64,000 nucleotides of DNA, from positions 806,001-870,000 of the forward strand of contig NZ_JPRH01000001.1 in the NCBI RefSeq assembly GCF_000737705.1, given 5' to 3'. A model generated the notes under the pieces. That model saw nothing but the letters and a program-made list of their open reading frames with translations, was not told the origin of the DNA and searched no databases. Positions 7,137-11,284 of the stretch are shown one piece after another (the stretch's first letter is position 1; each line of letters starts with the position of its first letter). The translations under genes and the position numbers were made by a program. This DNA comes from Chryseobacterium soli. GTDB lineage: Bacteria; Bacteroidota; Bacteroidia; Flavobacteriales; Weeksellaceae.

Positions 7137-8624
7137 TTATTTGGAATGGTTCATCATATTTGCGTCAATATTGATATTTAGTTGAGAAGCTACTTTCATG
7201 CCAAGTTCAATGTTGGCTCTGAAAAAATGACATAGCTGACGATTTATGATCTCATCCCTTTTAGGACCGTCAATTCCTCTCATGCTTCCTACTATATTAT
7301 TGATAAGATGTTCCCTGTCTTCTGTGTTCATTGCTTTGGTATATAAAAGACCCGGCTGAGTGTAATGATCATCGTCATTTTCATTTCTGTTATAGCTGGC
7401 AACATGAGCGCTGTCTAGTTCATAATCATAGCCTTTGTAAGAAGGATCCGGTTTGATGTCATCGAAACTGTTAGGATGGTAATTCGGCTTATCTCCATAA
7501 TCTGAGGAATCTGCCATATATCCGTCTCTTTGATAATTGTTAACGGCAAACGGGCATCGGTTTACCTCTAATTGATGAGCGTTTACACCTACTCTGTATC
7601 GGTGGGCATCCGGGTAAGAGAATAATCTTCCCTGAAGCATTTTATCCGGGGAAAAGCTGATGCCGTTGATTAAATTACTAGGTGAGAAGGTAGACTGCTC
7701 TACATGAGCAAAATAGTTAACCGGAATTTCATTCAGTTCCATTTCCCCAACTTCAATCAGCGGGAAATCTCCCTGGAACCAAACTTTAGTTATATCAAAA
7801 GGGTTCCATCTGAAATCTTTAGCCTGTTCTTCTGTCATGACCTGAATATACATTGTCCATTTTGGAAAATCACCATTTTCAATAGCGTTGCAAAGATCTT
7901 CCTGCGCAAAGTCCGGATTTTCACCTGCCATTTTCACAGCATCTTCATTGCTGAAATTTTTGATTCCCTGTTTTGTTTTAAAATGGAATTTCACCCAGGT
8001 TCTCTCATTATTCGCATTAATCATTGAAAAAGTATGAGAACCAAAGCCATGCATATGTCTGAAACCGTGAGGCGTTCCTCTGTCAGACATCAGGATAAGA
8101 ACCTGATGAAGCGATTCAGGATTTAAGCTCCAAAAATCCCACATCATCGTGGCACTTTTTAAATTGGTTTTGGGAACTCTTTTTTGGGTATGAATAAAAT
8201 CCGGGAATTTTTTGGCATCCTTAATAAAGAAAACCGGAGTGTTATTTCCTACTAAATCCCAGTTTCCATCTTCGGTATAGAATTTTAAGGCAAATCCTCT
8301 TGGATCTCTTGCGGTGTCTGCACTTCCTTTTTCTCCACCTACCGTAGAAAAACGCGCAAACATTTTACAGGAGTTTCCTACTGTTGAAAATAATTTGGCT
8401 TTTGTATATTGGCTGATATCGTGGGTCACGGTAAACTTACCATACGCACCACTTCCTTTTGCATGTACAATTCTTTCAGGGATTCTCTCTCTTACAAAAT
8501 GAGCAAGATTTTCCTGAAGGATAAAATCCTGAAGCAGAACAGGACCTCTGGGACCTACAGTCTGTGAGTCCTGATGTTCGAAATAAGGAGCGCCGCTACC
8601 TAAGGTTAATTTTTTAGAATCCAT
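7137..8624 (-). CDS. katA: Heme catalase (clade 3-like, KatA)
   Basis: The protein from the ATG at 8624 (MDSKKLTLG, 495 aa) has the catalytic block RERIPERIVHAKG with His54. It also has the proximal heme ligand block RLFSYPDAHRYR and the length of small-subunit catalases. An upstream in-frame start at 8681 would overlap the promoter, so I reject it. The gene is divergent from oxyR, with overlapping promoters, which suggests direct OxyR control. It removes hydrogen peroxide in the cytoplasm. Confidence 0.95.
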   Translation of the reverse strand: MDSKKLTLGSGAPYFEHQDSQTVGPRGPVLLQDFILQENLAHFVRERIPERIVHAKGSGAYGKFTVTHDISQYTKAKLFSTVGNSCKMFARFSTVGGEKGSADTARDPRGFALKFYTEDGNWDLVGNNTPVFFIKDAKKFPDFIHTQKRVPKTNLKSATMMWDFWSLNPESLHQVLILMSDRGTPHGFRHMHGFGSHTFSMINANNERTWVKFHFKTKQGIKNFSNEDAVKMAGENPDFAQEDLCNAIENGDFPKWTMYIQVMTEEQAKDFRWNPFDITKVWFQGDFPLIEVGEMELNEIPVNYFAHVEQSTFSPSNLINGISFSPDKMLQGRLFSYPDAHRYRVGVNAHQLEVNRCPFAVNNYQRDGYMADSSDYGDKPNYHPNSFDDIKPDPSYKGYDYELDSAHVASYNRNENDDDHYTQPGLLYTKAMNTEDREHLINNIVGSMRGIDGPKRDEIINRQLCHFFRANIELGMKVASQLNINIDANMMNHSK

Positions 8625-8685
8625 ATAGTTATATTTGAATGATTGATATCCTTTGCAGATGTCTTTATGTAGACATACCAAATGT

Positions 8686-8720
8686 CAAATTTACTTGAAT
8701 TTTTGATTGCTTATAGCAAA
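8686..8720 (-). promoter_or_regulatory. katA promoter, Bacteroidota type
   Basis: Read on the minus strand, TTTG (8717-8720) and TAAATTTG (8686-8693) are spaced by 23 bases. This matches the Bacteroidota sigma consensus TTTG-N17-23-TAnnTTTG. Transcription would start near 8680, giving a leader of about 55 bases. Confidence 0.65.
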
Positions 8721-8735
8721 AACCTTTTATCTTTG
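8702..8735 (+). promoter_or_regulatory. oxyR promoter, overlapping the katA promoter
   Basis: TTTG (8702-8705) and TATCTTTG (8728-8735) are spaced by 22 bases, a full match to the Bacteroidota consensus. It overlaps the divergent katA promoter by about 19 bases. An inverted TTATC-N9-GATAA at 8727-8745 straddles the -7 box and start point and could be a regulator site. Confidence 0.7.
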
Positions 8736-8755
8736 TAATAGATAATATTAATCAA

Positions 8756-9706
8756 ATGAACATTCAGCAATTGGAGTACCTTATCGCTGTAGATAAGTAC
8801 AAACATTTTGGGAAAGCGGCTCAAGCATGCTTTATTACACAGCCTACGCTAAGTGCAATGATACAAAAATTTGAGGATGAACTGGATGTAAAGGTTTTTG
8901 ACAGAACTACACACCCAATCCGTACTACAGACGTGGGCGTGCAGATCATCGATCAGGCTAAGGTCATTATAGAGTCTGTCAATGAGCTTAAGAATAAAGC
9001 CAATCTTTTAAACAATATTTTAGGAGGAACGATTAACCTGGGAATCATTCCTACGGTATCTTCTTTCATTCTGCCGACTGAAATCTTCAAGTTTCTGGAA
9101 GACAATCCAAAAATCCAGATGAATGTCAAAGAAATGACTACAGATAATATTATCAAAGCTTTAAAAGCCGGAGAACTGGATGCGGGAATTATTTCCACTC
9201 CTTATGATACGGCAGATGAGTTTTATCAGGATTTCTTATTTAATGAAGAACTGATGATCTACAGCTCGAATACAGAAGCAAATAAGAAAAATTCTTATAT
9301 CATTCCAGAAGATCTGAACGTTGAAAAAGTTTGGCTTCTGGAAGAAGGAAACTGTCTGAGAAATCAATTTGAAAATATCTGTCATTTAAAAGAAAATACA
9401 CTGAAGCCTAAAAATCTAGATTTTCTGGCCTCTAACATCCAGACTTTGGTACATATGGTAGATAAAGTAGGAGGGATCAGTATTTTGCCGGAGCTTGCCT
9501 TAAGCCAGCTTTCTGAAGAGCAGAAGACCAATGTTTTCAGATTTAAAAAACCTTTCCCTTACAGAGAGATAAGCATTATTTATTATAAGCCTACTTTCAA
9601 GCAAAAAATTATTGATGAATTAGCACACTCTATTACCGCTTCATTAAGCAAAAAGCTTAATTATAACGAAAGCCCAAAAGAATTCGTAAGTATTAAGCCA
9701 CAATAA
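8756..9706 (+). CDS. oxyR: OxyR, peroxide-sensing LysR-type regulator
   Basis: An N-terminal LysR HTH (residues 1-60, MNIQQLEYLIAVDKYKHFG) is followed by a periplasmic-binding-like effector domain. Cys200 (EEGNC) and Cys209 (ENIC) are nine residues apart, the same spacing as the redox disulfide Cys199/Cys208 of E. coli OxyR. The block GNCLRNQ also resembles the OxyR peroxidatic loop. This identifies it as OxyR rather than a generic LysR protein. Its position divergent from katA fits a peroxide-response switch. Confidence 0.93.
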   Translation: MNIQQLEYLIAVDKYKHFGKAAQACFITQPTLSAMIQKFEDELDVKVFDRTTHPIRTTDVGVQIIDQAKVIIESVNELKNKANLLNNILGGTINLGIIPTVSSFILPTEIFKFLEDNPKIQMNVKEMTTDNIIKALKAGELDAGIISTPYDTADEFYQDFLFNEELMIYSSNTEANKKNSYIIPEDLNVEKVWLLEEGNCLRNQFENICHLKENTLKPKNLDFLASNIQTLVHMVDKVGGISILPELALSQLSEEQKTNVFRFKKPFPYREISIIYYKPTFKQKIIDELAHSITASLSKKLNYNESPKEFVSIKPQ

Positions 9707-9770
9707 TTTATTTTTCTTAAAGTAAGACAGATCAATAATTTAAAGAAAATTATAATTAGTAAACAAAAGG

Positions 9771-9802
9771 TTTGAGTATTAAAAAAATAGTACTTAAATT
9801 TG
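9771..9802 (+). promoter_or_regulatory. metK promoter, Bacteroidota type
   Basis: TTTG (9771-9774) and TAAATTTG (9795-9802) are separated by 20 bases, an exact match to the Bacteroidota consensus. The predicted start point near 9809 lies immediately before the riboswitch aptamer, so the aptamer would be at the very 5' end of the mRNA. Confidence 0.75.
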
Positions 9803-9813
9803 CCAACGTTTAT

Positions 9814-9866
9814 GAACGAGGAAAAATTTGACCTGATTGCAACCTCTATAAAAAAAAGCTAAAACA
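9814..9866 (+). promoter_or_regulatory. SAM-II riboswitch aptamer upstream of metK
   Basis: A GAGG (9818-9821)/CCTC (9843-9846) helix encloses a loop with AATTTGACCTGATTGCAA. An A-rich linker and the 3' strand AAGCTAAAA follow. This is the layout of the SAM-II (metA motif) pseudoknot, including the conserved ATTGCAA and GCTAAA segments. The class is known from alphaproteobacteria and Bacteroidetes and binds S-adenosylmethionine. The following hairpin AAAGCTAAAA/TTTTCAGCTTT (9855-9885) would compete with the pseudoknot for GCTAAA, suggesting a switch. The match was made by eye. Confidence 0.85.
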
Positions 9867-9944
9867 GTAATTCTTTTTCAGCTTTCTGGGTATCTATTTC
9901 TTATTTTTCTTCGTCTATTTTTAATCTAAAAAATAAAGAATAAT

Positions 9945-11225
9945 ATGTCTTATTTATTTACATCTGAATCCGTTTCAGAAGGGCATCCAGATAAAATCGC
10001 CGATCAGATTTCCGATGCGTTAATCGACCATTTTTTGGCTTATGATAAAAATTCAAAAGTAGCTTGTGAAACTCTTGTTACGACAGGACAGGTAGTTCTT
10101 GCAGGAGAAGTAAAATCCGATGCTTATCTTGATGTTCAGACGATTGCAAGAGAAGTAATCAACGGGATTGGATACACGAAAGGAGAATATATGTTCAATG
10201 GAGATTCTTGCGGGGTGATCTCTGCAATCCATGAACAATCACCTGATATCAATCAGGGTGTTGACAGAATTGTTACAGATGAAACCTTTGAAGGAAAAGC
10301 AAACGCTCAGGGCGCTGGAGATCAGGGGATGATGTTTGGGTATGCAACGAACGAAACGGCTAATTATATGCCTCTTGCGTTAGATTTGGCTCATACTATT
10401 CTTAAAGAACTTTCTGCTATCAGAAGAGAAAATAAAGAAATCGCTTACCTTCGTCCGGATGCAAAAAGCCAGGTTACCATTGAATATTCTGATGACCACA
10501 AGCCGGTAAGAATTGATTCTATCGTAGTTTCTACACAGCATGATGATTTTGGAACAGAAGAAGAAATGCTTGACAAAATCCGTCAGGACATCAAAAGCAT
10601 ACTGATTCCAAGAGTAGCAGCACAGCAGACTGAGGAGATCAAAGCATTATTCAACGATCAGATCAAATACCATATTAATCCTACAGGAAAATTTGTAATC
10701 GGAGGTCCTCACGGGGATACCGGTCTTACAGGAAGAAAAATCATCGTTGATACATATGGTGGAAAAGGAGCTCACGGTGGTGGTGCTTTTTCCGGGAAAG
10801 ATCCTTCTAAGGTTGACAGAAGTGCTGCCTATGCAACAAGACACATCGCTAAAAATTTAGTGGCTGCAGGGGTTGCTGATGAAGTGTTGGTACAGGTTTC
10901 TTATGCGATCGGTGTTGCAGAACCTTGTGGATTGTACATCAATACGTATGGAACGGCAAAAGTAAATCTTCACGATGGAGAAATTGCTAAAAAAGTATCT
11001 ACGATTTTTGATTTAAGACCCTATGCAATCGAGCAGAATTTAAAATTAAGAAACCCGATCTATCAGGAAACGGCTTCTTACGGACATATGGGAAGAGAGC
11101 ATTTTGTAGCTGATAAAACCTTTAATAAAGGCCATAAGAATGAACTTACGTTAAAAGATCTTGAGTTCTTTACGTGGGAGAAACTAGACAAAGTGGAAGA
11201 GATTAAAACCGCTTTCGGTATTTAA
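9945..11225 (+). CDS. metK: S-adenosylmethionine synthetase
   Basis: Makes SAM from methionine and ATP. Full length (426 aa), with the signatures [25 protein letters not shown] and [19 protein letters not shown] (ATP and metal loops). The gene has its own promoter, a 140-base leader with a SAM-II-type aptamer, and a strong terminator, so it is a single-gene unit. Feedback by its product SAM is therefore expected. Confidence 0.97.
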
Positions 11226-11247
11226 TTTTTTCTTAATACAATAATAG

Positions 11248-11284
11248 ACTGCTTTATCTTCACCAGATAAGGCAGTTTTTTTTA
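11248..11284 (+). terminator. Intrinsic terminator of metK
   Basis: ACTGCTTTATCT pairs with AGATAAGGCAGT around the loop TCACC, with one mismatch, and a run of T follows. Confidence 0.9.

Follow-up and report, generated by a model that had tools for sequence, protein, structure and literature searches.

A SAM-II riboswitch before metK in Chryseobacterium soli and a candidate strand-exchange switch without a Shine-Dalgarno sequence

Known SAM-II systems and the metK leader

SAM-II expression platforms, as far as the available portions of the literature describe them, work by terminators or by masking of a Shine-Dalgarno sequence (PMC1273637, PMC2258182, PMC6061858, PMC9373788). The SAM-II metA motif (RF00521; Corbino et al. 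2005, PMC1273637) shares with the locus described here a core of P1 and a pseudoknot, also has a promoter a few nucleotides before P1, and is expected to be a genetic OFF switch; many of its members carry putative terminators after P2, whereas none was seen in the window (the whole 64,000-nucleotide stretch of Chryseobacterium soli DNA that was analyzed), and RF00521 had no match at gathering there (cmscan). The metX SAM-II and SAM-V riboswitches likewise have a SAM pseudoknot and a predicted translational OFF function, but with the Shine-Dalgarno sequence in or adjoining the pseudoknot 3' strand, according to the accessible text of PMC6061858. For SAM-II of S. meliloti metA, which like the window concerns translation of a distant AUG, the accessible text describes sequestration of a GAGG Shine-Dalgarno sequence in the riboswitch, in contrast to the anti-aptamer strand and A-rich start of the window (PMC9373788).

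The aptamer considered here belongs to RF01726, the SAM-II long loops, which were described in 2010 with Bacteroidetes among their hosts (Weinberg et al. 2010, PMC2864571). The sequence, structure and Bacteroidetes hosts are the same; the available part of that report states no expression mechanism, for which we propose a strand-exchange model. This is of particular relevance in a group in which, as reported in the accessible part of PMC9976891, ribosomes (those of Bacteroidia) do not recognise Shine-Dalgarno sequences. The aptamer is known, and the expression platform is regarded here as a new variant of the SAM-II platform: no description of an anti-aptamer, Shine-Dalgarno-free SAM-II platform was found in the CC-licensed PMC literature, itself a partial set, and the available portions of PMC12121620, PMC7366714, PMC9723704 and PMC6429828 yielded no account of SAM-II in a Bacteroidetes metK setting.

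The features of the promoter, the aptamer and the gene are as follows.

9771-9774, + strand: TTTG, a -33-like promoter element (sequence)
9795-9802, + strand: TAAATTTG, a -7-like element (TANNTTTG) (sequence)
9812-9872, + strand: SAM-II aptamer, RF01726 (covariance model)
9818-9821, + strand: GAGG, P1 5' strand, pairing with CCTC at 9843-9846 (Rfam alignment)
9827-9830, + strand: TTTG, putative third (triplex) strand, by analogy to the SAM-II/SAM-V structures (PMC6061858, as available)
9830-9833, + strand: GACC (sequence)
9833-9840, + strand: CTG-ATTGC, putative P2a/P2 5' strand, by analogy; it complements GCTAA and CAG, with T9860 bulged
9836-9842, + strand: ATTGCAA (sequence)
9858-9863, + strand: GCTAAA (sequence)
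9858-9867, + strand: GCTAAAACAG, P2/P2a 3' strand, which includes GCTAAA (sequence, Rfam alignment)
9945-11225, + strand: metK, SAM synthetase, 426 aa (open reading frame; name from sequence and family context)

Scanning the 64-kb window with cmscan placed RF01726 at 9812-9872 (+) with 66.9 bits against a gathering score of 44 (E 1e-10), and the match spans the full model (1-60). RF01726 is the sole Rfam family at gathering within the window, and the metK leader is its sole match in the whole 4.75-Mb assembly. The earlier note, which had suggested such a covariance-model search, proposed a SAM-II riboswitch in front of metK; the search bears this out, and the stretch is confirmed by the model as a SAM-II riboswitch, for which SAM binding is predicted. 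The GACC, ATTGCAA and GCTAAA elements were located where that note had seen them, and the strands of both the P1 stem (GAGG/CCTC) and the pseudoknot P2 (ATTGC/GCTAA with a bulged T, CTG/CAG) are present, the assignment of the P2 strands being made by analogy.

The aptamer sits between a gene for a LysR-type regulator (8756-9706, named by eye) and metK, a SAM gene, whose ATG at 9945 follows the aptamer end by 72 nt and the end of GCTAAA by 81 nt. The TTTG and TAAATTTG elements are taken to be a Bacteroidetes-type promoter. P1 (9818) starts 15 nt downstream of the -7-like element, so that the close spacing of promoter and aptamer noted earlier holds, with the transcription start itself a prediction. 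Of 165 homologous leaders, 161 have TANNTTTG upstream of P1; the spacing is 13-16 nt in 90 of these and exceeds 50 nt in two. As for the surroundings, a catalase-like gene (-) is divergent from the LysR/OxyR-like regulator gene (+) at 7137-9706, directly upstream of the metK leader (names by eye from the open reading frames), and a strong terminator-like hairpin of 14 bp (11246-11278; -16.6 kcal/mol, with a U tract) stands right after metK.

At E<=0.001, the sampled genomes with an RF01726 match number 136 of 148 in the family (all above the cut-off), 172 of 246 in the order (169 above the cut-off) and 45 of 296 in the phylum (41 above the cut-off). The 37 bases from P1 onward are identical in 62 contigs of named genomes, 61 of them Chryseobacterium and one a Weeksellaceae bacterium. 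At 165 of 170 loci the aptamer is followed by a metK start, which the parse demanded; the five unparsed loci are L068 and L158 (N), L072 (contig end), and L101 (below-cut-off match) and L130 (contig edge), in which the aptamer was not located. The distance from GCTAAA to the ATG is 42-121 nt (median 74) in the 165 leaders. Three of the nine matches outside the order were read (L171, L180 and L193), and metK lies downstream in all three. All nine sampled genomes of one genus are among the 12 family genomes that lack a match; a protein search located metK in 11 of these 12.

Pairings that compete with the aptamer

The 165 leaders, among which two pairs are identical, were grouped at 70% identity into 75 clusters, which are not independent of one another; L166, misparsed with the aptamer set too far upstream, is inside the 75 and excluded from the set of 74. 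Because the third-strand region varies between lineages, aptamers could be swapped among them: in this swap test, each of the 74 leaders was combined with the aptamers of other lineages in 20000 permutations. The competing strands in the window are the following.

9855-9885, + strand: hairpin H-A, 9855-9867 with 9873-9885, 11 bp with two mismatches (predicted free-state fold)
9816-9827, + strand: ACGAGGAAAAAT, aptamer arm of the predicted anti-aptamer helix, 12 bp with 9903-9914 (free-state fold)
9903-9914, + strand: ATTTTTCTTCGT, candidate switching strand, with 9816-9827 in the free-state fold; in the bound state 9902-9911 would pair with the start region
9888-9894, + strand: GGGTATC, predicted extra anti-aptamer pairs with 9842-9845 and 9835-9837 (free-state fold)

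The earlier note had pointed to a downstream strand able to take the GCTAAA strand, and in the predicted free-state fold H-A is present as it was described, with pairs 9855-9860/9880-9885, 9862-9864/9876-9878 and 9866-9867/9873-9874; it would occupy the P2 3' strand and thereby exclude P2. Its standing as the competitor held up in part. The hairpin can form, and pairing of the GCTAAA strand exceeds that in shuffles in 12 of 75 clusters (p<=0.05; Fisher 6e-8) and, under a stricter local test, in 10 of 75 (Fisher 0.004), but the uninterrupted 6-bp core is no stronger than chance in the window (p=0.31, 2000 shuffles), and only 83 of 165 leaders have at least 6 bp over GCTAAA. Among the 71 leaders of Chryseobacterium type, at least one of which (L071) comes from another genus, the number is 29. 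The hairpin's own combinations were no better than swaps (KS p=0.17).

In an alignment of relatives, as suggested for this hairpin, H-A is 93.5% paired in 52 selected family leaders, yet these are uninformative for co-variation, none being visible because the 5' arm is the invariant aptamer core; UUUUAG is invariant in all 52, whose selection had required TTTAG. For the pairing of TGATTGC on the alignment of these leaders (A1), co-variation is uninformative too, the aptamer side being invariant. Since pairing of the GCTAAA strand beats shuffles across the 75 clusters, H-A is a real but accessory element and, judged from these comparisons, neither the strongest nor the best-conserved competitor. 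The GCTAAA hairpin as the whole switch was considered and set aside as present but secondary.

A stronger competitor than H-A is the long-range helix between 9816-9827 and 9903-9914, which reaches beyond the region covered by the earlier note. It has 12 bp with one G-U (p=0.0025, 2000 shuffles), is the one significant helix among the three tested in the window, occupies the P1 5' strand and encloses H-A. In the predicted free-state fold, GGGTATC contributes short pairings with the P1 3' and P2 5' strands; its counterpart in many Chryseobacterium leaders is GGCAATT or similar.

Complementarity of this kind extends to the relatives. Tested against dinucleotide shuffles, the duplex energy of the aptamer 5' half with the leader was significant in 41 of 75 clusters (p<=0.05), of which 23 reached p<=0.01; the linker control had 9 and 0 of 75. 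Under a stricter ungapped test, the third strand together with the P2 5' strand was significant in 26 of 75 clusters (13 at p<=0.01; Fisher 1.6e-15), the control strands giving 1 (linker), 3 (promoter) and 3 (metK codons 7-12) of 75. By itself, the P1 strand reached a borderline 7 of 75 (Fisher 0.065). In the swap test on the 74 clusters, natural combinations for the third strand and P2 5' strand scored 15.11 versus 13.78, and 0 of 20000 permutations were as good; the signal persists within GAGG-type P1 (84/20000) and within GTGG-type P1 (1/20000). The P1 strand with its 5' flank gave the same result (0/20000), and an upstream stretch of the same relatedness, used as a control, was matched by 3547 of 20000. 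In 67 of 74 clusters, unconstrained folding paired 8 or more nucleotides of the leader with the aptamer, and the free-state folds were on average more stable than with shuffled platforms (mean z of -2.87). These sequence comparisons show that Flavobacteriales leaders are complementary to the aptamer 5' half and co-vary with it.

The metK start in the predicted bound and free states

Two states were modelled with RNAfold: the free state, representing the absence of SAM, was left unconstrained, and in the bound state, representing SAM, the aptamer was held formed and barred from other pairs. RNAfold cannot represent a pseudoknot, so the bound state is an approximation by constraint. One further feature is needed here.

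9932-9947, + strand: A-rich start region with the ATG, A at -3, -6, -12 and -13 (bound-state fold)

In the bound-state fold, 9902-9905 pairs with 9942-9945, and 9907-9911 with 9936-9940. Across clusters, the predicted cost of opening the start region from -18 to +3 was 5.74 kcal/mol bound and 3.83 free, against 4.65 and 4.30 with shuffled platforms (p=4e-5 for the bound state alone, p=0.002 for the free state alone). The bound-minus-free difference was 1.91 kcal/mol, against 0.35 for shuffled platforms (Wilcoxon p=9e-7, 74 clusters), with similar outcomes for other definitions of the start region (-12 to +3, p=2e-8; -20 to +20, p=7e-5). It was positive in 53 of 74 clusters and non-positive in 21, being clearly negative in L006, L008 and L149.

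For the window itself, the modelled opening cost is 9.1 kcal/mol bound and 3.8 free, and the difference of 5.3 was matched by 1 of 100 shuffles; taken singly, the bound start was as closed in 4 of 100 shuffles and the free start as open in 40 of 100. For 9927-9947 the mean unpaired probability is 0.47 in the free state and 0.24 in the bound state, so that even the free-state start region is just half open; for the A of the AUG it goes from 0.83 to 0.06 and for position -3 from 0.49 to 0.26. At positions -6, -12 and -13 pairing prevails in either predicted state.

The leader masks the start in the predicted bound state in 55 of 74 clusters, and in 31 of these 55 the free-state fold pairs four or more of those nucleotides of the leader with the aptamer, a count that has no shuffled control. 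Among the 52 selected family leaders, 38 cells of the start helix have changed on both sides versus 17.4 in shuffles (0/500 as high), for example from U-A to C-G in 12 sequences, and the helix has a co-variation score of 0.249 versus 0.142 (0/500), with slid controls reaching at most 0.157. Two of the five measures on A1 fail to exceed shuffles: pairs with changes on both sides (7 of 9 versus 5.6, with 73/500 shuffles as high) and pair types (198/500 as high). Natural start-leader pairs were equalled by 3 of 20000 permutations, a signal carried by the family of the window (16/20000) and marginal elsewhere (1105/20000).

By sequence, the start-masking helix of the window is not significant (p=0.55, shuffles). 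The argument that 7-8 bp in nearly every Chryseobacterium leader make it solid was rejected, as such a helix is expected by chance in an AT-rich leader; because shuffles yield such helices, the claim rests on the wider evidence only. This evidence, an energy model together with co-variation in one family, suggests that the freed strand may mask the start in the bound state.

A candidate translational switch and its rivals

The best explanation, and in our judgement a reasonably probable one, is that the leader is a SAM-II translational OFF switch for metK that works by strand exchange and without a Shine-Dalgarno sequence. The aptamer would emerge near the 5' end of the transcript. With no SAM, the leader would pair back on it through 9816-9827 and 9903-9914, enclosing H-A and short helices; this anti-aptamer pairing would dismantle P1 and P2 and leave the start codon comparatively open (ON). 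SAM would hold the aptamer folded and so free the pyrimidine-rich strand 9902-9911, which would then pair with 9936-9945, covering the bases right before the AUG and its A (OFF). Neither a Shine-Dalgarno sequence nor a terminator would be required. SAM binding, the direction, the translational level and the exchange of strands in the cell are parts of the model, and OFF by SAM would be the sensible direction for metK because it amounts to product feedback.

According to the accessible text of PMC6847099, F. johnsoniae tunes initiation through structure around the start and through adenines at -3, -6, -12 and -13, and metK of the window has A at all four positions, for which reason translational OFF by strand exchange is favoured. 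The modelled free state is about 12 kcal/mol more stable than the aptamer-held state (pseudoknot and SAM energy excluded), so the decision is probably kinetic and would be made while 9868-9914 is transcribed. The earlier note had asked how such a switch could work where Shine-Dalgarno use is weak; strand exchange by the leader offers a testable answer, although start masking is, as stated, non-significant by the sequence of the window.

Control could instead be exerted on transcription, SAM binding letting it end before metK. Proteobacterial SAM-II riboswitches are in many cases predicted to be OFF switches of this kind. In the available portions of the sources, putative terminators are described for many SAM-II RNAs (PMC1273637, PMC2258182), and most SAM-II are termed transcriptional (PMC6061858); moreover, the leaders contain U-rich tracts, and Rho-dependent or non-canonical termination would evade our scans. 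However, a pattern scan found no terminator-like site at 9700-10000 of the window, and only 2 of 75 clusters (L032 and L159) have a U tract preceded by a hairpin of -8 kcal/mol or better. Both hairpins lie on the GCUAAA strand and have the wrong polarity, because SAM would tie up that strand and prevent them. Of eight gene ends on which the script was run, three scored -10 or better (that of metK itself, at -16.6 kcal/mol, and the two that share one convergent terminator) and three gave no result, so the script's silence counts as moderate evidence. Canonical terminators are thus scarce in these leaders, an intrinsic terminator between P2 and the metK reading frame is disfavoured, and we regard the transcriptional alternative as unlikely.

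A mechanism after the translational model for metX SAM-II and SAM-V (PMC6061858, as available), with a passive leader, could draw on the action at a distant AUG reported for S. meliloti metA (accessible text of PMC9373788), but we consider it very unlikely here: there is no Shine-Dalgarno sequence in or adjoining the pseudoknot 3' strand of the window, the stretch before the ATG being AAAATAAAGAATAAT, the gap between GCTAAA and ATG is wide in the window and in the 165 leaders alike, and a complementarity of leader and aptamer that co-varies would be unexpected of a passive leader. Least of all would we expect H-A alone to be the switch, the GCTAAA strand alternating between P2 and 9855-9885. 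That hairpin can form and would exclude P2, its GCTAAA strand beats shuffles across clusters, and UUUUAG is invariant in the selected family leaders (where TTTAG was demanded); against this stand its presence in about half of the leaders, the lower yield of the local test, own combinations that do no better than swaps, and a core that in the window is no stronger than chance.

For the strand-exchange model, a wider reading may be ventured, which to us could about equally well hold or fail: a class of translational riboswitches, spanning the order Flavobacteriales and independent of Shine-Dalgarno sequences, in which a pyrimidine-rich leader strand would be passed between the purine-rich 5' half of SAM-II and an A-rich, Kozak-like metK start, lineages having rewired the pairs and kept the exchange. 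Strand exchange would explain SAM-II switching in bacteria whose translation does without Shine-Dalgarno sequences. The metK leader gives a base-resolved model for ligand control of initiation where the start is A-rich. The system, which much of an order has conserved, would allow the role of the upstream adenines themselves to be tested against the mere absence of structure.

Several leaders of other build were also noted. Nine loci (L145, L149, L154, L159, L162, L165, L168, L169 and L170) have an insert between the P1 3' strand and GCTAAA that looks hairpin-like by eye, and RF01726 matches reach up to 117 nt. In the nine genomes of one genus (L196-L204), and also in L195 and L205, metK has no SAM-II match, which is a natural loss of the switch; by eye, the leaders of that genus are mostly short and have a promoter-like TTAAATTTGCA a little upstream of the A-rich start. 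The short leaders L006, L008, L013, L048 and L052 have pyrimidine stretches (TTTCCTC, CCTTCCTC and similar) near the ATG that, by eye, complement the P1 5' strand.
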